A DNA stretch of 64,000 nt from Fimbriimonadaceae bacterium (GTDB lineage: Bacteria; Armatimonadota; Fimbriimonadia; Fimbriimonadales; Fimbriimonadaceae): NCBI GenBank assembly GCA_019454125.1, contig CP075365.1, positions 800,218-864,217 on the forward strand. Reading direction: 5' to 3'. Each line of letters starts with the position of its first letter. Positions within the stretch are counted from its first letter, which is position 1. This document shows positions 5,444-32,917 of this stretch, one piece after another. A program made the translations under genes and the position numbers. The notes beneath the pieces are model-generated. The model was not told where the DNA came from and did not search any database. It was given only the letters and a program-made list of their open reading frames with translations.

Positions 5444-5754
5444 GCGCGCTGAAGACTTGTCCTGACGGGACCGCGCAACTCCAAGCCGATCCCGGGCTAA
5501 AGGTTCCGCCTGATGTTTGGGTGGTCATGACCGACGGCACGCGCCATGCGTTCACCGGCCAGGTCGAACCCCGTCGCCTTGGGCTGGCCGTGTTCACGAC
5601 CGAAGAGGCAGGAGGGCTCTACTGTCGAATTGCCGGGTTCGACGGCTTTCGCCCGGTCGTCGTCACTTCGAGCGAAGCGATCGCGTTGGCGAAGGCCAAG
5701 GGCGTTTTGGACGTGGCGACCTGTGACCGTTATCCGGAGGTCTGGTGGTGGTGA
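5440..5754 (+). CDS. Hypothetical protein of the early operon
   Basis: I place the start at GTG 5440, overlapping the previous stop (GTGA), giving 104 residues. The sequence alternates short beta-strands (VWVVMTDGTRHAF, RRLGLAVFTTEEAG, FRPVVVTSSEAIALAKAKG) and has no recognisable motif. Its 3' end overlaps the start of the sigma-like gene, so the two are probably co-translated. Confidence 0.5.
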   Translation: MSALKTCPDGTAQLQADPGLKVPPDVWVVMTDGTRHAFTGQVEPRRLGLAVFTTEEAGGLYCRIAGFDGFRPVVVTSSEAIALAKAKGVLDVATCDRYPEVWWW

Positions 5755-6533
5755 ACGGGTTTTCCGAAGAGCGCCTGAAGGCGTTGGCAGAGGCCGCCCA
5801 GCTTGGCGACCGTAACGCGGAGGCGGCTTTCGTCCAAGCGTTTTGGGACGTGTGCCTGCACGAGGCGCGCGACTTCCGTATCCCGGGCGTGGACCTTGAG
5901 GACGCCCATGCGATCGCGCTCCACGCCTGTGTCCTCGCCGCTCGCACCTACACCCCGGGAAGGGGCTCAAAAGTGGAGTCGTACACCAAGATTTTGGTGA
6001 GGCGAGCTTTTTGTGACGAGGCCAGGCGCCAAGCGACTGTTTCGCGCTCAGCCTCGCGCGACGCCCTGTCCCTTGACCGGGACGACGGCGACGGGCCGCT
6101 TGGCGACCGGGTCGGCTGTAACGACCCCGGGATCGCCCGTTTGCCGTCCGCTTCGCACTGGTCTGCCACGGCCGGCGCCCAGTCCGACCGCTTGCGCAGG
6201 CTCGTGGCCCAAGGCGACGCGTCGACGGTCGAGCAGGTGCTCGGCTGGTGGCTCGTCAAAGAGATCCGCGCGGGACGAGCGCGGAGCAAAGACTTCGCCG
6301 CCTTCGTCCGTTGGTCCTCGGCGAGACAGGCCTCCCTTTTCGACCCGGGAGAGGTCGGCTTGCCAGAGTGGCAAGACAGCCTTGTGGCTGGGTTCCTTGC
6401 CTGGACTGACTCACTGGCTGAAGCGTTCGCAAGCGGCGAGCGGCCGCGGTCGGTAACCGCCGGGGTGCCAAAGCCCGTGCTTGTGGCCGTAAAGACGCTA
6501 CTGGCCGAGCGCCTTTTAGACCAGCCCGCGTAA
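5745..6533 (+). CDS. Sigma-70 region 2-like protein, candidate late-gene regulator
   Basis: 262 residues; GTG at 5745 or 5748 after GGAGG at 5736-5740. Residues about 25-95 read like sigma-70 region 2: DLEDAHAIALHACVLAARTY followed by TPGRG-K-E-SY and VRRAFCDEARR. This parallels the sigma pattern DLxQ..L.A..RFDPxRG..F.TYA...IR.A. The C-terminal 150 residues do not show an obvious region 4 helix-turn-helix, which a typical sigma factor would have. It is the last gene before the lysis and head genes, many of which carry a conserved CGTANT(T/G)GG element just before their start codons. I infer a regulator that directs RNA polymerase to that element. Other readings are an anti-sigma target or a transcription-unrelated helical protein. 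Confidence 0.5.
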   Translation: MVVNGFSEERLKALAEAAQLGDRNAEAAFVQAFWDVCLHEARDFRIPGVDLEDAHAIALHACVLAARTYTPGRGSKVESYTKILVRRAFCDEARRQATVSRSASRDALSLDRDDGDGPLGDRVGCNDPGIARLPSASHWSATAGAQSDRLRRLVAQGDASTVEQVLGWWLVKEIRAGRARSKDFAAFVRWSSARQASLFDPGEVGLPEWQDSLVAGFLAWTDSLAEAFASGERPRSVTAGVPKPVLVAVKTLLAERLLDQPA

Positions 6534-6537
6534 TTGG
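6529..6537 (+). promoter_or_regulatory. CGTANTKGG element, copy 1
   Basis: CGTAATTGG overlapping the stop of the sigma-like gene; 7 bp separate TAATTG from the endolysin ATG at 6544. First copy in the phage. Confidence 0.6.
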
Positions 6538-10268: not shown

Positions 10269-10277
10269 CGTAGTTGG
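10269..10277 (+). promoter_or_regulatory. CGTANTKGG element, copy 4
   Basis: CGTAGTTGG; 6 bp separate TAGTTG from ATG 10283 of the portal gene. Confidence 0.6.
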
Positions 10278-11944: not shown

Positions 11945-11953
11945 CGTAGTGGG
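11945..11953 (+). promoter_or_regulatory. CGTANTKGG element, copy 5
   Basis: CGTAGTGGG; 7 bp separate TAGTGG from the GTG start at 11960. Confidence 0.55.
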
Positions 11954-13614: not shown

Positions 13615-13623
13615 CGTAGTTGG
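13615..13623 (+). promoter_or_regulatory. CGTANTKGG element, copy 6
   Basis: CGTAGTTGG; 8 bp separate TAGTTG from ATG 13631. Confidence 0.6.
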
Positions 13624-13630
13624 GCCGGCG

Positions 13631-14857
13631 ATGGCCCAAAAACTGAGCCTTGACGACGTGCGGCAGCTGGTGCGGGCCGCTATCCTCTCGACACTTCCGC
13701 CGGACACGCCGGCCTACGTCTACGACCTCTACGACGACGCGGCGGTTTACGGCATCGACCAGCCGAACGGCACCGTGCGGCACTATCGCGTGCCTTACGA
13801 GATCGATGACGACGGGAAGGTGACCCTTGGCCAGTCGGAAGAGGTGCGGCAGGTGCGGACTTGGGAGACGATCAAGTACACCAAGTTTACGGCCGGGCAC
13901 ATCGAGGAGCTGGCGGACGGCTCGATCGAGGTCACCGCGAAGTTGTTCACGATCGGTGACTATCCGGACAAAGGGTTTGGCATCAACGAGGCCGAGGCCG
14001 ACGAGGCCGTCACAGAGATTGACGCGCTCCCGGCGCCGGTGATCGTCGAGCACATGCGCAGCGTCTTTACCCATGCCGACCCGTTCAACGTCGGCAAGCT
14101 TGCCAAGGTTTGGCGTGAAGGACTCGACCTGTTCGGCAAGATTCGGTTCAGCGGCTGGGTCAAGGACGCGCTTAAAGGGCAGGCGCCCAAGCTCTCGCTA
14201 GGTTGGAGCCAGCATCCCAAGCGCATCGTCGAGGTCTCGCTGGTCCTCGATCCCAGGGTCGAGGACGCGGGCCTGCTCGCCGCCTTCTCCTCAAAGCCGG
14301 CACGTATTGGGGGCGCGATGAAGAACTTCTGGGCGGGCCTGAAAGGGCTCCTAAACCAGACGCCGGACGAAGAGCTGGCGCAGTTCGGCGCAGCCGCGCC
14401 GGGCTCGCCCGCCCATTCGAGCGGCGTCTCCGCCGAACAGGTCGGCGAGATCGTCACTCAAAAACTGGCGGAGTTCAAGGCCAGTCTTGGCGCTGCCGCG
14501 CCCCAGGCTGCCACAGACGGGCAGCTCGACGCGGCGGTGGCCACTTTCACCGCCGAGATCAAGGCAGGGGGCCGCGTCCCGCCCGCCGCGGTCGAGGCCT
14601 TTTCTGCGCAGTACCGCCAGGCGCTGCTCGACGATAACGGCGGCACCGTGGTCTTTTCTGCCGGGCGACCCGCGGAGGGCCTGCGGGCGGCTGCCCTTCG
14701 CCAGACCATCGCCGGCCTGCCTAAGGTCGGCTGGACCGAGGAGTTGGTGAACGGCAAGCTGGTCGTCATGGGTGCCGAGACAAAGCTTGACGAAGACGGC
14801 GTCCTGCCGGTCTCGGTGAGCGCCGAAAAGGTCTTTGGCAAGGGAGGCAAGGCGTAA
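13631..14857 (+). CDS. Prohead protease fused to scaffold
   Basis: 408 residues. The first about 225 residues look like a phage head-maturation protease region (VYDLYDDAAVYG, then ITV-type strands, SVFTHADPFNVGKLAKVW, APKLSLGWS and EVSLVLDPRVEDAG). The last about 180 are helical, Ala/Gln/Glu-rich and scaffold-like. The position directly before decoration and capsid genes fits. Catalytic residues cannot be assigned with confidence. A CGTATTGGG element at 14303 precedes an internal in-frame ATG at 14318 that separates the two halves, so the gene probably makes both a protease-scaffold and a free scaffold. Confidence 0.65.
   Translation: MAQKLSLDDVRQLVRAAILSTLPPDTPAYVYDLYDDAAVYGIDQPNGTVRHYRVPYEIDDDGKVTLGQSEEVRQVRTWETIKYTKFTAGHIEELADGSIEVTAKLFTIGDYPDKGFGINEAEADEAVTEIDALPAPVIVEHMRSVFTHADPFNVGKLAKVWREGLDLFGKIRFSGWVKDALKGQAPKLSLGWSQHPKRIVEVSLVLDPRVEDAGLLAAFSSKPARIGGAMKNFWAGLKGLLNQTPDEELAQFGAAAPGSPAHSSGVSAEQVGEIVTQKLAEFKASLGAAAPQAATDGQLDAAVATFTAEIKAGGRVPPAAVEAFSAQYRQALLDDNGGTVVFSAGRPAEGLRAAALRQTIAGLPKVGWTEELVNGKLVVMGAETKLDEDGVLPVSVSAEKVFGKGGKA
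14303..14311 (+). promoter_or_regulatory. CGTANTKGG element, internal copy before nested scaffold start
   Basis: CGTATTGGG inside the protease-scaffold gene; 7 bp separate TATTGG from an in-frame ATG at 14318, the same geometry as the intergenic copies. Confidence 0.6.
14318..14857 (+). CDS. Nested scaffold protein (internal start)
   Basis: 179 residues in frame with the protease gene, starting at its Met230 (MKNFWAGLKGLLNQTPDEEL). The segment is mostly helical with Ala, Gln and Glu, as expected of a capsid scaffold. Lambda makes Nu3 in the same way from inside gene C. The support here is the conserved element exactly 7 bp before the internal ATG and the domain boundary at that point. Expression is inferred. 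Confidence 0.5.
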   Translation: MKNFWAGLKGLLNQTPDEELAQFGAAAPGSPAHSSGVSAEQVGEIVTQKLAEFKASLGAAAPQAATDGQLDAAVATFTAEIKAGGRVPPAAVEAFSAQYRQALLDDNGGTVVFSAGRPAEGLRAAALRQTIAGLPKVGWTEELVNGKLVVMGAETKLDEDGVLPVSVSAEKVFGKGGKA

Positions 14858-15627
14858 TGCCAGGTTTCGGCCCTACGGACATCGGAAAGACCGGTCGCGG
14901 CCTGACCTGCATCGCCGACCCGAGCACCGGCCGGCGGAAGGTCGGGGGCTTGACGATCGACTGGAGCACTGTCCCCACGATCGGCATCAATGAAGTGCAG
15001 ACTGTGACTGTCACCGGCTCACCGACCGGCGGCACGTTCCAGTTGGGTTTCGGCGGCCAGACCACGTCTAACCTGAACCACAACGCTGACGCGGCGACGA
15101 TCGAGGCGGCGCTCGAGGCGCTCAGCACGATCGGCAACGGTAACGCCAGGGTCTCTGGCACCGGGCCGTTCACGGTCGAGTTCGTCGAGGGCCTCCGCAA
15201 CAGCGACGTGGCGTTGATGACCCTCGCCGCGAACAACCTGACGGGCGGTTCCACGCCGAGCGTCACGATCGTCGAGACGACGAAGGGCCGCGCGGAAGCG
15301 GATTTGACCCTGACGGACGGCACGGTGGTCAAAGCCGGCGACAAGTTCCTCGAGTACGGCACGGTCTTGGTGGAGATCACGGCCAGCGGGAAGTACGGCC
15401 CCTACGACGCTAACGCGAGCGACGGGCGGCAGACGGTGGCCAGCAAGCGTGGCAAAGTGTGGATCAAGGGCCAGACGCTCGTAAAGAGCGAGCTCGGTAG
15501 CGACCACACCGGAGACGTCTACGACGAGGGCATCTTCTTCAAGGCGCGGGTCAAGGTCGGTGGCACGGGGCAGCCCACGGAGGCCAACCTCCTCTCCGCC
15601 CTGCCGGGAGTGACCTGGACCTCGTAA
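14857..15627 (+). CDS. Head decoration protein with inserted repeat domain
   Basis: 256 residues; ATG overlaps the scaffold stop by one base, with GGAGG about 11 bases upstream. The C-terminal half (LTDGTVVKAGDKF, GKYGPYDANASDG, VYDEGIFFKARV) resembles lambda gpD-type decoration proteins. Inserted after residue about 45 is a domain of about 95 residues beginning VQTVTVTGSPTGGTF and ending SVTIVETTKG. The same domain occurs in the tail gene at 20747. Decoration proteins bind the expanded capsid and stabilise it; the extra domain would project from the surface. Confidence 0.65.
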   Translation: MPGFGPTDIGKTGRGLTCIADPSTGRRKVGGLTIDWSTVPTIGINEVQTVTVTGSPTGGTFQLGFGGQTTSNLNHNADAATIEAALEALSTIGNGNARVSGTGPFTVEFVEGLRNSDVALMTLAANNLTGGSTPSVTIVETTKGRAEADLTLTDGTVVKAGDKFLEYGTVLVEITASGKYGPYDANASDGRQTVASKRGKVWIKGQTLVKSELGSDHTGDVYDEGIFFKARVKVGGTGQPTEANLLSALPGVTWTS

Positions 15628-15643: not shown

Positions 15644-16762
15644 ATGGCATACACCCTCTCCGAGCTCCTGTCGGTAAACCGGATCAGCCGGATCATCGAC
15701 GACGTCTACGACCGGCGCGGCGCCCAGCTGCCCGCCGCGGCCCAACGCGTCCTGAACGTCGACGCAGACGAGGACGAGATCACGGCCAAGGTCACCGGCC
15801 TGATCGTCGCGGCCGACATCATCGCCGACGACGGGAAGGCACGCGTCCGAGGGACCGAGCCTCTCCGCCTTACCCAGACGAAGGTGCCGAACCTCAAGAT
15901 CGGCATGAACTTCAGCCAGGGCAAACTGAACCTGCTTAACCGTCTGCAAAGCCAGTCTTTGCCGGGCGACCTGCAGAGCTTCGACTCTTACATGATGCGC
16001 TCGCTACGGGCGATCTTGGACGGCGTCGAGGCCCGGCGCGCGGCGCTGGTCTGCGCGATGATGTCGGACGTCGGCACCTACAATGCCTTCGGGATCCAGT
16101 TCACTAACATGAGCTGGGGCATGCCGGCGAACTTGAAGACGACCCTCGCGGGCAACCGCCGCTGGATCGCGGGCAACGAGGCCACGGCGCTTCCAGTCAC
16201 GGACATCCGCGAGATGCGCGACACTGCCATCCAGCAGTACGGGATTCGGTACGACCGCGTGACCATGAGCGCCGCGAAGTTGCAGTTCATGGCCTCGACT
16301 ACGGAGTTCCGAAACCTCGCAGCGGTCGTGCGCCAGCTCGACCTGCCGGTCGGGTTCAACTTCAACACGCTTGAGCTGGGGCCGCTCCGCCAGGTGGTCG
16401 GCGCGGTGCTCGACATCGATATCGAGGTCGAGGACGCTGTCTACTTCGTCGAGAACGAGGACGGGACGCAGACATCGAGCCGCTACTTCAACGCGGCGGA
16501 CGTAATCCTGAGCGTGAAGGCGTTCGATGGGAACACGTCGGTCTGGGACTTCGCGAACGCGGTGGTGACCGAGTCGATCGTCGGGAACAAGGCCAACGTC
16601 GCACTGGTCGGCGGGGGGTTTGCCTCGCCAGTCCGGGGCCCGGTCGGCTACGGCACCGGCTCTCCCGACCTTAACCCGCCGAACATCACCCTTTGGGGTG
16701 TGCAGCGCGGCTTCCCGCGGAAGCACATGGAGACCGCGACCGCCCGCATCAGCACCGAATAA
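15644..16762 (+). CDS. Major capsid protein, gpE-like
   Basis: 372 residues; ATG 15644 is preceded by a good Shine-Dalgarno (GAGGGGAG), fitting the high expression a capsid needs, and no CGTANTKGG element. The sequence follows the major capsid protein E family: N-terminal helix, FSQGKLNLLNRL, ADVILS and a C-terminal extended strand with PVRGPVGYG. It forms the icosahedral shell. A strong terminator follows, so capsid transcripts end here. Confidence 0.8.
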   Translation: MAYTLSELLSVNRISRIIDDVYDRRGAQLPAAAQRVLNVDADEDEITAKVTGLIVAADIIADDGKARVRGTEPLRLTQTKVPNLKIGMNFSQGKLNLLNRLQSQSLPGDLQSFDSYMMRSLRAILDGVEARRAALVCAMMSDVGTYNAFGIQFTNMSWGMPANLKTTLAGNRRWIAGNEATALPVTDIREMRDTAIQQYGIRYDRVTMSAAKLQFMASTTEFRNLAAVVRQLDLPVGFNFNTLELGPLRQVVGAVLDIDIEVEDAVYFVENEDGTQTSSRYFNAADVILSVKAFDGNTSVWDFANAVVTESIVGNKANVALVGGGFASPVRGPVGYGTGSPDLNPPNITLWGVQRGFPRKHMETATARISTE

Positions 16763-16787: not shown

Positions 16788-16807
16788 GGGCCGCCTTCGG
16801 GCGGCCC
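16788..16807 (+). terminator. Strong rho-independent-type terminator after the capsid gene
   Basis: GGGCCGCC-TTCG-GGCGGCCC, a perfect 8-bp GC stem with a UUCG tetraloop, followed by CTTCCTT. A CGTANTKGG element begins 8 bp later. Confidence 0.8.
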
Positions 16808-16814
16808 CTTCCTT

Positions 16815-16823
16815 CGTACTTGG
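16815..16823 (+). promoter_or_regulatory. CGTANTKGG element directly after the terminator
   Basis: CGTACTTGG; 7 bp separate TACTTG from the GTG start at 16830. Its place right behind a terminator is the best argument that the element promotes transcription. Confidence 0.65.
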
Positions 16824-16829
16824 CCGAGT

Positions 16830-17165
16830 GTGGAAAACACTGAAGACGGGTTTGCAGGGTTTGTCGCAGAGCTCGACCAGATCCTTTGTGGCCCTCCGGA
16901 CGACGCCGGCACCGTCCTTGAAGCGGCTAGGACGCTCGTCTACGGGGACAGGCAACGGGCTTATGGCAAAGCGCGCGAGAACCACGAGAGGATCGCGAAG
17001 GTCTGGGAGGCCGTGCTCGGCGTTCCGATCAGCGCAGAGCAGGTGGTCGCTTGTATGGCCGGGCTGAAGCTCGCCAGGATTGCGGGAAACCTGGACCACC
17101 GAGACTCTTGGGTCGACCTCGCCGGATATGCCGCAGTCTGGGACAAAATCAAGCGGGGGGAGTAA
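16830..17165 (+). CDS. DUF6378-family phage protein
   Basis: 111 residues, GTG start. The segment YGDRQRAYGKARENHERIA ... VWEAVLG ... KLARIAGNLDHRDSWVDLAGYAA is characteristic of DUF6378, small phage proteins of unknown function often near replication or accessory genes. It opens the accessory island between capsid and connector genes. Bases 16919-17030 are duplicated perfectly at 17616-17727. Confidence 0.75.
   Translation: MENTEDGFAGFVAELDQILCGPPDDAGTVLEAARTLVYGDRQRAYGKARENHERIAKVWEAVLGVPISAEQVVACMAGLKLARIAGNLDHRDSWVDLAGYAAVWDKIKRGE
16919..17030 (+). repeat. 112-bp perfect direct repeat, copy A
   Basis: Lies inside the DUF6378 gene and is identical to 17616-17727, 697 bp away. No mismatch was seen, so the duplication is recent. 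Confidence 0.95.
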
Positions 17166-17615
17166 GTGGCCGCCCCAAAGTACACCGACCACGAAGACGC
17201 GCTGATCATCGCGCACGCTGAGTCCTGCAAGTACGACGAGCGGAGGCAGGCGTGGTTGATGGCCCAGTTGCCGGGCAGGGCCTGGAACGGTGTCTTGAAG
17301 CGGGCAAAGCTCCTATCGCAGCATGTGCCCGGCCCACCCCCAGAGGCGCATGAGCCGACCCCGGCCCAAGTGGTGGCGAGGGCTGCGAACCCCTCGAGCG
17401 ATCCCGGCGAGCTGATCCGGCGGAACGTCGAGCTTGAGGCAGAAGTGGCGATGCTGCGCCAGCAACTGGCCTGGTCGCAAAGGGCCGCTCCCGAACAGCG
17501 CACCGGCGGTGTCCTGACCGTAAGGGCCAGCGACCACCACCACGCCGACCTCAAGCACCTAATTCGCAGCTGTGCCCAGGCCCATGCCAAGGTCAGGCCG
17601 CTCGTCAGCATGTAA
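17166..17615 (+). CDS. SANT/Myb-like DNA-binding protein with coiled coil
   Basis: 149 residues, GTG immediately after the previous TAA, with GGGGGGAG upstream. The first 45 residues (YTDHEDALIIAHA, then AWLMAQLPGRAWNGVLKRAKLL) follow the SANT/Myb-like or GcrA-like helix-turn-helix pattern of small phage regulators. Residues about 85-105 form a short coiled coil (ELIRRNVELEAEVAMLRQQL). It could regulate the island or bind host DNA. The sequence gives no target. Confidence 0.55.
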   Translation: MAAPKYTDHEDALIIAHAESCKYDERRQAWLMAQLPGRAWNGVLKRAKLLSQHVPGPPPEAHEPTPAQVVARAANPSSDPGELIRRNVELEAEVAMLRQQLAWSQRAAPEQRTGGVLTVRASDHHHADLKHLIRSCAQAHAKVRPLVSM

Positions 17616-17727
17616 TGAAGCGGCTAGGACGCTCGTCTACGGGGACAGGCAACGGGCTTATGGCAAAGCGCGCGAGAACCACGAGAGGATCGCGAAGGTC
17701 TGGGAGGCCGTGCTCGGCGTTCCGATC
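17616..17727 (+). repeat. 112-bp perfect direct repeat, copy B
   Basis: Identical to 16919-17030; begins one base before the end of the SANT-like gene plus a short junction, and breaks off at a point where the flanks differ completely. Confidence 0.95.
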
Positions 17728-17820
17728 GTGTGCCTGACAGAGTGGTCTTCGGTCATGCAGGAGCGGGGCGAGCTCGCGGCGGAATCGGAGTCTGGGGTCG
17801 TCATGGGCGGCCGCTGGTGA
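17616..17820 (+). pseudogene. DUF6378 gene fragment
   Basis: The duplicated 112 bp keeps the DUF6378 frame (residues from EAARTLVYG to VLGVPI) but has neither the original start nor the C-terminal half. After the repeat the frame continues for about 30 unrelated codons to a TGA at 17820. There is no suitable start codon in frame close by, so this is a fragment left by the duplication. Confidence 0.7.
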
Positions 17821-20276: not shown

Positions 20277-20747
20277 ATGGCAGAGGTGCGCCTGAGAATA
20301 GACCGGTTCGACCTCGCAAAAAGCGGTGTCCGCAAAGGCCTTGACGGAGCGGTGCGCGCCCTGGCGTCCGAGTGTCAGGCGCGGGCGATCGATAACATCG
20401 GCGCTTACCCAGAAGCCCGTCGGCCCATCGACACGGGCGCCATGCAGGCGAGCATTTACGTAGAGACGGCCGACAGCTCGGAGCGCCAGGAAGCGTTGGC
20501 CAGGGCCGCGGAGCAGTACGCCACGGCATCGCGCGCAGAGGCGCCTCCCGAGGGTGCCGCTTCGCCAAGGCCCGCCGACTTGGAGGCCAAAGTGGCGGTC
20601 GGTGTCGAGTACGGCGTCTACGTCGAGCAAGGCACCCCGAAAATGGCCGCGCGCCCGTTCCTTGAGCCTGCGCTGGCTTCCCTCGAGGCAGAGACCGAGC
20701 GTGTCGTCAAAGAAGCGGTCGCGGAGGCTCTCCGCGAGGTTCTCTGA
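20277..20747 (+). CDS. HK97 gp10-like tail completion protein
   Basis: 156 residues. Characteristic segments are PIDTGAMQASIYVETA and YGVYVEQGTPKMAARPFLEPAL near the C terminus, the hallmark of the HK97 gp10 family. These proteins act at the head-tail junction in siphoviruses. Its stop shares a base with the next gene's ATG. Confidence 0.85.
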   Translation: MAEVRLRIDRFDLAKSGVRKGLDGAVRALASECQARAIDNIGAYPEARRPIDTGAMQASIYVETADSSERQEALARAAEQYATASRAEAPPEGAASPRPADLEAKVAVGVEYGVYVEQGTPKMAARPFLEPALASLEAETERVVKEAVAEALREVL

Positions 20748-23029
20748 TGCCGCAGCGAGTGCTGGTCTTCCAGTCCGCCGTGGGAACCGGGTGGACGTCA
20801 CCCACGAACGCGCTAGCCGAAGACGGCTCAGCCGCTGTGTACCCGCCGGGGGGTGCGCAGAGCTGGCTCCGACTGACTGACGCGGCGTCTCGGGTGCTCC
20901 CAGAGGACGACGAGGTGCTCGGCGTTGAGGTCGTGGTCGTCGCGCTCGGCACGGGTGGCCCCGGTCGCACGGTCGTCTTAGGGAAAGGGCTGAAGGAGTA
21001 CGCCGCGGCGCTGGGCGACCTGGTCGACGACGCGCCGGAGACATACGACGGCGTCGCCGGCACTTACTACGGGTGGGCGACACAGTCGCTCTCGGAGTGG
21101 CGCGGAGTGACGGTCGTGCACGACCTTGGCTTGGCAACGGGCGTCGGGCGGATCGTCACGATCGGGACGAACTATGCCGGCTCCTCCCGCCGCGAGTGGC
21201 ACTATTCGGACGACGGGACAACGTGGACGCCGGTGTCATACGCCCCCGACACTCCTCCAGGTTATCTGCCGGGCGACCCTTGGACGTACGACCAAGAGTT
21301 GGCCGACTGCACGGTCGCCCGCTATTGGCGCTATTCGAGCCGCGACGAGCTGGACGAACCGCCTGCTTTCGGCGACTCCTCAGGGCCAAGGGTGAACGAG
21401 TTCCGCCTTTATGGTTGCGACGGCACGACTCTCCTCACCCCGGGATGGGACGGTGGGGCCGGGCAGCTCGAGCGGCTCGACGTTTCTCTCACCCTCGACG
21501 GTTCGACCCCTGTCGGAGAGACCAAGACGTTCACGGTCGGGCCGTCAGGGGGCACCTACACCCTCGGCGGCGTCCTCGACCTTTGGGGGCTGCCCCTTGA
21601 GCCTGACGACATCGCGCTCTCCACCTTCGGCGCCATGGTGCGCCGTGGCGGCCCCAGCGGCGAGGCACTGCACACCGAGCGGCGCGTCGACGTCGTCCGC
21701 GCAGTGGTGACGCACCAATCCGTAATGGGCTCGCTGGAAATGCCACGCGAGTACCCGTTACAGCGATGCGTCCTAGGAAAAGAGGTCACCCCTGGAACGC
21801 CCGTCTCCCCGACGATCCTCTTAAAGGCGGCACGGTTGACCATGCAGTCACAAGAGGCCAGTGAGGAAGTCCGGTTCCAAGGCGAGTTGATCCCCGGGAT
21901 GCAGGTGAACAACGGCGGGGACATGGCGACCGGCCAGGTCACGGGCAAGCCCACCTACGACGAGCTCGGTCTCCTGCTACGGTCCCTGTTCGGCGACCCG
22001 GTGACCACGACCGTCACCACCGGAGTTTACCGGCACGAGTTCAACTTCGACCCTCGTGGCCAATCCCCGTTCAGGACCTACACGAATGAGTGGGGCGACA
22101 AGACGAACGCCGAGCGTTACGCCTATGTCCTTTTGACCGCCCTCGGGATGTCCGTCAAGCGCAACGAGTCGCCGTCGATCGACGGCCAAGCGATCGGTCG
22201 CAGGATGGTGCTCACAACGCTCACGCCGGGATCGAACGCGGTACAGACCGTCACCGTCACCGGCTCACCGACGGGGGGCAACTTCAAGTTGCGGTTCAAG
22301 GGTGCGACGACGGCGAACATCGCCTACAACGCGAACGCGGCGGCCTATCAGGCGGCCCTGGAGGCGCTCAGCACCATCGGTTCGGGCAACGTCACGGTCA
22401 CTGGCTCTGGGCCGTTCACCGTGACGTTCGGGGCGGCCTTGGCAGGCGAGGCCCAGCCTGCACTCGAGCTAGCGGCGAACAACCTGACAGGCGGTTCGTC
22501 GCCGGACGTCACGATTGCGATCACAACGTTGGGCGGTTATACGGAGTTCGCATGTGTGCCGATTGAGCCGGGCCAGGCCAACGTCTACTTCGCGACGTCG
22601 CTCGCGGGACTGGCGGCCGGAAAACTGGCGGCCTGCTTCAGCTCGGAGTGGTCTTGTAGCGGCAAGCACGCGCCGGTCTTCGTCCTCGACGACACTCTCG
22701 ATTCCTTCGCCCACGCGACCGAGGACGACGTCACCCTCAGGGGAGCGGTGCTCATCGAGGCTAACAGCGTCGCCACGACCATGGTGAACGCGAAGCGCGA
22801 CAACACCCTTAACTACCTGCGGCTGCTGTACACGTCAAAGGTCAACATCCCCGGCACGTCGACCAAGTTCAGCCTCGACGTCACCTTGGCCGGTCAGGTC
22901 AACGAACTAGGAGCGATCGAAAACGACCAACAGATCGTCGCCCGTCGGTTTGGGTTCTCCAACCGGTTTGACCCGGCCTGGGGCAAGAGCTGCCAGTTTG
23001 TGCTCGTTAACGGGGTGGCGAGCTACTAA
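20747..23029 (+). CDS. Tail protein: discoidin-like N-terminal half fused to tail tube-like C-terminal half
   Basis: 760 residues, unusually long for this position. Residues about 115-225 resemble an F5/8 type C (discoidin) fold: ETYDGVAGTYYGWATQ, REWHYSDDGTTWTPV, ARYWRYSS, then an ELRLYG-like end. From about residue 330 (MPREYPLQRCVLGKEVTPGTPV) the sequence looks like a phage major tail tube protein, with an inserted domain (VQTVTVTGSPTGGNF to VTIAITTLGG) shared with the decoration protein at 14857. A CGTAATGGG element at 21721 and an in-frame ATG at 21740 lie at the junction, so the tube half may also be made alone. Confidence 0.6.
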   Translation: MPQRVLVFQSAVGTGWTSPTNALAEDGSAAVYPPGGAQSWLRLTDAASRVLPEDDEVLGVEVVVVALGTGGPGRTVVLGKGLKEYAAALGDLVDDAPETYDGVAGTYYGWATQSLSEWRGVTVVHDLGLATGVGRIVTIGTNYAGSSRREWHYSDDGTTWTPVSYAPDTPPGYLPGDPWTYDQELADCTVARYWRYSSRDELDEPPAFGDSSGPRVNEFRLYGCDGTTLLTPGWDGGAGQLERLDVSLTLDGSTPVGETKTFTVGPSGGTYTLGGVLDLWGLPLEPDDIALSTFGAMVRRGGPSGEALHTERRVDVVRAVVTHQSVMGSLEMPREYPLQRCVLGKEVTPGTPVSPTILLKAARLTMQSQEASEEVRFQGELIPGMQVNNGGDMATGQVTGKPTYDELGLLLRSLFGDPVTTTVTTGVYRHEFNFDPRGQSPFRTYTNEWGDKTNAERYAYVLLTALGMSVKRNESPSIDGQAIGRRMVLTTLTPGSNAVQTVTVTGSPTGGNFKLRFKGATTANIAYNANAAAYQAALEALSTIGSGNVTVTGSGPFTVTFGAALAGEAQPALELAANNLTGGSSPDVTIAITTLGGYTEFACVPIEPGQANVYFATSLAGLAAGKLAACFSSEWSCSGKHAPVFVLDDTLDSFAHATEDDVTLRGAVLIEANSVATTMVNAKRDNTLNYLRLLYTSKVNIPGTSTKFSLDVTLAGQVNELGAIENDQQIVARRFGFSNRFDPAWGKSCQFVLVNGVASY
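21721..21729 (+). promoter_or_regulatory. CGTANTKGG element inside the tail fusion gene
   Basis: CGTAATGGG at the junction of discoidin-like and tube-like halves. The next in-frame ATG (21740) is 11 bp after TAATGG, longer than at other sites; an in-frame CTG (21734) lies at 5 bp. Confidence 0.4.
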
Positions 23030-32908: not shown

Positions 32909-32917
32909 CGTAATTGG
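32909..32917 (+). promoter_or_regulatory. CGTANTKGG element before fibre-region gene 2
   Basis: CGTAATTGG; 7 bp separate TAATTG from ATG 32924. Confidence 0.6.

Follow-up and report, generated by a model that had tools for sequence, protein, structure and literature searches.

The window, by which is meant the whole stretch of 64,000 nucleotides analysed here, contains a prophage which occupies 800–864 kb of a 2.65-Mb Fimbriimonadaceae (Armatimonadota) genome (Table 1). Its head module runs in the order terminase, Mu-type portal, MuF-like gene, 408-aa open reading frame (ORF), lambda D-like decoration gene and gpE-like capsid gene. The protein encoded by the 408-aa ORF gives no match to Pfam, PHROG or NCBIfam, and its protease label derives from gene order together with the homologue L012 (prophage G055), which matches PHROG head maturation protease 976/328. 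The ORF has an N-terminal protease domain and a C-terminal scaffold-like part and lies between the portal/MuF and capsid genes, in keeping with the nested layout of lambda C/Nu3, to which the original prediction had compared it. The start of the decoration gene overlaps the stop codon of the scaffold (TAATG), with GGAGG upstream of the decoration gene. Separately, a repeat-like domain (VQTVTVTGSPTGG...; phmmer E=1e-33) is common to the decoration and tail-tube proteins, and some 36 residues, AARTLVYGDRQRAYGKARENHERIAKVWEAVLGVPI, are encoded in both 16830–17165 and 17572–17820, about 700 bases apart, as a local duplication.

Table 1. Features of the prophage in the window, with the homologous junctions of related phages
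Feature	Position	Strand	Remarks
Phage sigma-70-family factor	5745..6533	+	Region 2 clear; Shine-Dalgarno-led start, likely GTG 5745-5751
First element copy	6529..6537	+	Overlaps stop codon of the sigma gene; following start ATG 6544
Element before portal gene	10269..10277	+	ATG 10283
Mu-type portal gene	starts 10283	+	ATG; element 10269..10277 upstream
Element before MuF-like gene	11945..11953	+	GTG 11960
MuF-like gene	starts 11960	+	GTG; element 11945..11953 upstream
Element before protease start	13615..13623	+	CGTAGTTGG; ATG 13631
Protease/scaffold ORF, 408 aa	13631..14857	+	Homologues L003-L006
Internal element	14303..14311	+	CGTATTGGG; ATG 14318
Predicted nested scaffold gene, 179 aa	14318..14857	+	ATG is Met230 of the long ORF
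Lambda D-like decoration protein	14857..15627	+	Pfam HDPD, E=7e-8
Major capsid protein, gpE-like	15644..16762	+	Pfam Phage_cap_E, E=5e-7; PHROG 29
Hairpin, terminator-like	16788..16807	+	GGGCCGCC-ttcg-GGCGGCCC + CTTCCTT; after capsid gene; fold z = -4.1
Element after capsid-gene hairpin	16815..16823	+	Gene start GTG 16830
Second internal element	21721..21729	+	Inside 760-aa tail ORF 20747-23029
Nested tail-tube-like gene, 429 aa	21740..23029	+	Own element at 21721; ATG 21740
Last element copy	32909..32917	+	ATG 32924
Remaining element copies (start positions)	7390, 7700, 17821, 20261, 23649, 26273, 28075, 31806	+	
Junction in L011 (G008)			CGTAGTGGG-n6-ATG
Junction in L012 (G055) and L085			CGTAAGGGGGGCGTG-ATG
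Junction in L013 (G006)			CGTACTAAATCGGCTGAC-ATG
Junction in G102			CGTAAAGGGCCATTG-ATG

Within the 408-aa ORF, the 9-mer CGTATTGGG, which in its exact form occurs once in the window, is separated by six bases from an ATG that is in frame as codon 230. A conserved domain running across this junction, which the original prediction had named as contrary to it, is not seen: in most matching genomes the homology block ends at about residue 215–222 and the conserved protease domain at about 217–222, before the junction. A predicted model of the ORF places a linker at 206–228 and a helix from 229, at low confidence (mean pLDDT 53.5), which was too weak for a fold search, so that the model served for domain limits only. 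Diverged relatives retain the junction methionine, with an amphipathic helix after it. No Shine-Dalgarno sequence (at least 5 nt of TAAGGAGGTGA, 3–13 nt before the ATG) is found at the window junction. The bases directly 5′ of the ATG, GGGGGCGCG, could form a weak ribosome site via G-U pairing, and the copy in G055, TAAGGGGGG, has an even greater potential of this kind; both count against a promoter at this position.

The internal 9-mer belongs to a class, CGTANTKGG, of which the window holds 16 copies, all on the + strand and none on the − strand, the expectation being 1.6 for both strands together; no shuffled sequence reached 16. In 15 of the 16 copies the start codon of an open frame follows 14–16 nt after the C of the element, while the copy at 21721 has its in-frame ATG at 19 nt. 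The internal copy thus has the geometry of the intergenic ones, as had been claimed for it. The genes marked in this way are the late structural genes. Across the whole 2.65-Mb genome, CGTANTTGG-N(2-8)-ATG has 11 forward matches, ten of which lie in this phage, and four reverse matches, as against 1+1 for a reversed-pattern control. Moreover, CGTA lies at −13 to −17 in 11/29 phage ORFs vs 20/324 host ORFs; control positions in the host give 12–13/324, such that CGTA is at most slightly raised before host genes, and a host-wide signal was rejected.

Related phages were obtained through whole-genome searches and alignment queries; single-sequence searches of viral contigs, genome contigs and phage records returned no relative. 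The nearest named relative of the window phage (G008) lies in an isolate of the same family, Fimbriimonadaceae ACE_ARM1 (CP075364.1), and G055 corresponds to JAIXUN010000002.1. Eleven phages were compared at the junction, namely the element-bearing window phage, G008, G055, G006 and G102, together with G020, G010, G113, G112, G110 and G115. Chromosomal Mu-like capsid relatives, which make up the bulk of the 69 matching genomes, were excluded from this comparison because, in the 20 inspected, the matching gene adjoins a gpT-like capsid gene and does not belong to the phage. These chromosomal genes form an observation in their own right. At 6348–8696 of L010, from a genome of 2.21 Mb, a host-chromosomal protease-domain gene has as its neighbour a capsid gene of the Mu gpT type (PF10124, E=3e-58), and the gene list of L010 shows no portal and no terminase; L014, L015 and L058–L074 are further loci with this pair. 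It occurs mostly as one copy per genome across most of the order, adjoins dxr and an M50 protease gene in two genomes, and looks like a domesticated capsid operon.

One of the checks set beforehand by the original prediction was whether relatives keep the internal motif, and the outcome is positive. An element precedes the homologous internal methionine in the G008, G055, G006 and G102 prophages and in the viral contig L085, at protein identities of 46% (G008), 35% (G055) and 29% (G006). With the protein held fixed and phage codon usage applied, CGTA at the junction has probabilities of 0.13, 0.035, 0.13 and 0.12 across four phages, which multiply to ~7e-5, while just 0.5–1.4% of internal in-frame ATGs in the five element-bearing sequences have CGTA at 14–18 nt. 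As judged from these sequences, then, the internal copy is conserved beyond the demand of the encoded residues. Two features of this conservation count against a promoter: the wording of the element varies among phages (CGTANTKGG, CGTAGNKGG, CGTANNKGG, CGTACTT, CGTAAnCGGC), and the G055 pattern is degenerate, with seven minus-strand matches.

The element is absent at the homologous methionine of the other six phages, five of which instead have AAGGAG, AGGAG or GGAGG 5–9 nt before it. Among the element-bearing phages a Shine-Dalgarno sequence of at least 5 nt occurs in one of five (TAAGG, within the G055 element), giving 1/5 vs 5/6 (p=0.08). In other words, in 10 of the 11 phages the internal methionine is preceded by an initiation signal of one kind or the other. 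The exception, G010, has neither element nor Shine-Dalgarno sequence, which counts against the promoter reading set out below. Together with the conserved junction and the early end of the protease domain, the Shine-Dalgarno sequences in these relatives support the claim that a scaffold gene is nested within the protease gene.

All five element-bearing prophages encode a sigma-70-family protein. CGTA is present at the junction in 5/5 sigma-encoding phages vs 0/6 others (Fisher p=0.002); a sigma homologue was not found in the stretches of the other six that were examined, some of which are short, so that its absence there is not proof. Assignment to the sigma family draws on several lines. The Pfam Sigma70_r2 match of the window protein (E=3e-4) and the region 2 matches of three homologues (E=2e-4 to 2e-3) fall below the curated cut-off; the phage proteins also match the NCBIfam SigI, FliA and ECF sigma models, and the homologue L081 passes the cut-off of TIGR02937 (sigma70-ECF), being the only one among the phage sigmas to align through to the end of region 4 of that model; no domain is assigned to the C-terminal half of the window protein. 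A profile built from four phage sequences picks up host sigma factors in all 113 of 113 genomes. A search of viral contigs with the sigma alignment gave no match. For a low-confidence structural model (mean pLDDT 54), the Foldseek matches listed were nearly all sigma factors, with a TMt of ~0.8 over region 2 but E > 0.01.

Four prophages, those of the window, G008, G055 and G006, have a layout that can be resolved. In each of them the copies of the element begin at the stop codon of the sigma gene, which the first copy overlaps or abuts, and the stretch upstream of the gene is free of them. On contig 14 of G102 (L125, L126, L131), the sigma, portal-like and long tail-like genes lie on one strand with CGTAAnCGGC elements, the run of which begins at the end of the sigma gene. 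The protease, decoration and capsid-like genes of G102 are on the strand opposite to sigma, which counts against a promoter and could reflect either inversion of the head module or a misassembly.

Further signs come from the sequences around the element. In each of four phages compared, a strong hairpin (z −4.0 to −5.6) lies directly 5′ of the post-capsid element, the hairpins of the three relatives being unrelated in sequence to that of the window; such a hairpin directly before the element points to a promoter. The window hairpin is clearly found by folding, and was not listed by a consensus terminator scan (its tail, CTTCCTT, has few T). A consensus scan likewise found no ordinary sigma-70 promoter, and alignment of 15 window elements reveals no conserved −35 block within 45 nt upstream. 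This counts against a promoter, as the −10 region would have to suffice for recognition unless an unseen helper takes part. In published sigma-I promoters the −10 box is CGAA or CGTA (PMC6056542), the latter being the core of the element. Sigma-I and ECF promoters require a −35 box in addition.

The second internal element marks another nested gene. The 760-aa tail ORF is an in-frame fusion, the C-terminal 429 aa of which are tail-tube-like; in G020 and G010 the tail tube has a gene to itself. Neither this second nested arrangement nor the phage sigma gene, which supplies the likely mechanism, figured in the original prediction. Upstream of the nested tail-tube start an element is found in each of four phages; its distance is 16–19 nt in two of them, while the other two have it 50 nt and 91 nt away, the 91-nt case being a degenerate pattern and suggestive only. 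The two phages with the distant elements have a Shine-Dalgarno-like sequence at the tail-tube ATG. An element far from the ATG suits a role in transcription better than one in translation.

The reading which best accommodates these observations, and to which we give a probability of roughly 0.8, is that a −10-only promoter for the phage sigma lies inside the protease gene and gives a near-leaderless scaffold-decoration-capsid mRNA. The 408-aa ORF would be the head-maturation protease, with the scaffold encoded in frame in its 3′ part from its own start, and CGTATTGGG would be one copy of a phage-specific promoter with a −10-type box, a CGTA core and no recognisable −35. This promoter would be read by the host RNA polymerase carrying the phage sigma, which is encoded just upstream of the late genes. 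Transcription would begin at, or within a few bases of, ATG 14318, and the mRNA would probably end at the hairpin after the capsid gene; such an internal promoter would let scaffold and capsid be produced in excess of the protease. The sequences show directly that the element exists, where it stands, that it is conserved and that it occurs together with a sigma gene, and from these we infer sigma binding, initiation at the element and translation of a leaderless mRNA. The proposal of the original prediction, that a transcription start replaces the internal ribosome-binding site, is supported to this extent by the distribution of the element (5/5 vs 0/6) and by the hairpins in 4/4 phages, the transcript itself being a putative one.

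The main rival is that the element acts on RNA, as a signal for translation initiation or control within a polycistronic mRNA that replaces the Shine-Dalgarno sequence, in the manner of the Start-Associated Sequences (SAS) of mycobacteriophages. The element does occupy the position of a ribosome site (−15 to −7), elements and Shine-Dalgarno sequences substitute for one another, and SAS repeats, for which a translational role has been proposed, have the same placement and one-way orientation (PMC3203893). Against this, the element has no match to the normal host anti-Shine-Dalgarno sequence ACCTCCTT, it is strictly linked to the sigma gene and has no copies upstream of that gene, hairpins lie immediately upstream of it, and two copies are 50–91 nt from a nested tail start. 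We consider such an RNA signal unlikely, albeit the most credible of the alternatives.

The same one-way orientation and the many intergenic copies recall the ‘stoperators’ of cluster A phages, as mentioned in PMC3203893, whereby the copies would be asymmetric repressor or silencer sites over the late genes with no role in initiation. Silencers would not be expected to keep a fixed spacing of 14–16 nt to start codons, to go together with a sigma gene or to give way to Shine-Dalgarno sequences in relatives, which makes this very improbable. The SAS and stoperator readings were both considered and ranked below the promoter. There is equally little to recommend a coding accident, in which the protein needs Arg-x-Gly-Gly and the methionine, as a linker or cleavage site, and 14318 does not serve as the start of a separate scaffold. 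Several homologues do have Arg with a Gly close by, and a protease-release site might lie at the junction; the choice of the CGT codon, the Shine-Dalgarno sequences before the homologous methionine in five relatives, and the frequency of in-frame embedded scaffolds in phages (PMC2628397, PMC4378225) all speak against it.

Taken more widely, the promoter reading would have this phage family run its late genes by its own sigma factor on −10-only promoters that abut start codons. The dosage of scaffold to protease would be set in the herpesvirus way, from a promoter within the protease gene; the ribosome-binding site of relatives would have given way, at the very same codon, to a promoter, and the tail tube would be marked likewise. 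This broader picture seems to us probable, if less assured than the reading of the single locus. The natural swap, in which the same in-frame methionine is preceded in some phages by a ribosome-binding site and in others by a promoter-like element for the phage sigma, offers a testable case of transcriptional control of scaffold dosage replacing translational control. A further prediction is that this little-studied phylum has a phage sigma regulon whose late mRNAs are leaderless, and in which the element alone can locate nested genes, as for the tail tube here.

Several known systems resemble parts of this arrangement. The late promoters of T4, read by the phage-encoded sigma gp55, consist of a −10 box only and stand in many copies before late genes; the T4 late system uses a sliding-clamp co-activator, and its −10 sequence differs from the element of the window. 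The SAS of cluster K mycobacteriophages are likewise short, asymmetric, phage-specific repeats placed a few bases before many starts in one orientation, but have the sequence GGGATAGGAGCCC with an AGGAG core and precede non-structural genes (PMC3203893), whereas the window element contains no AGGAG or Shine-Dalgarno sequence, marks late structural genes and is accompanied by a sigma gene.

With regard to the nested gene itself, many phages embed the scaffold in frame (PMC2628397). Lambda C/Nu3 and Mu I/Z, as well as the Mu-like PaMx73 and KS10, similarly have it in frame within the 3′ portion of the protease gene, beside decoration and capsid genes. The internal scaffold start of PaMx73 and KS10 carries a Shine-Dalgarno sequence (PMC4378225, PMC2628397), while that of the window phage has no strong one and a phage-specific promoter-like element in its place. 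In a literature search of partial coverage, no phage turned up in which a promoter drives a nested scaffold. In HSV-1 UL26/UL26.5 and HCMV UL80/UL80.5, according to PMC4498786 (citing Liu and Roizman 1991) and PMC9732275, the scaffold comes from its own transcript which starts inside the protease gene; the likeness, one of layout, is that the scaffold is in frame and has its 3′ end in common with the protease gene. The herpesviruses use the polymerase and promoters of a eukaryotic host, whereas in the prophage it would be a phage sigma on bacterial RNA polymerase that recognises the promoter. The arrangement is a possible bacterial parallel to UL26/UL26.5. Nested scaffolds are thus known from lambda and Mu, and an internal promoter of their own from the herpesviruses; the version driven by a phage sigma looks to be new.
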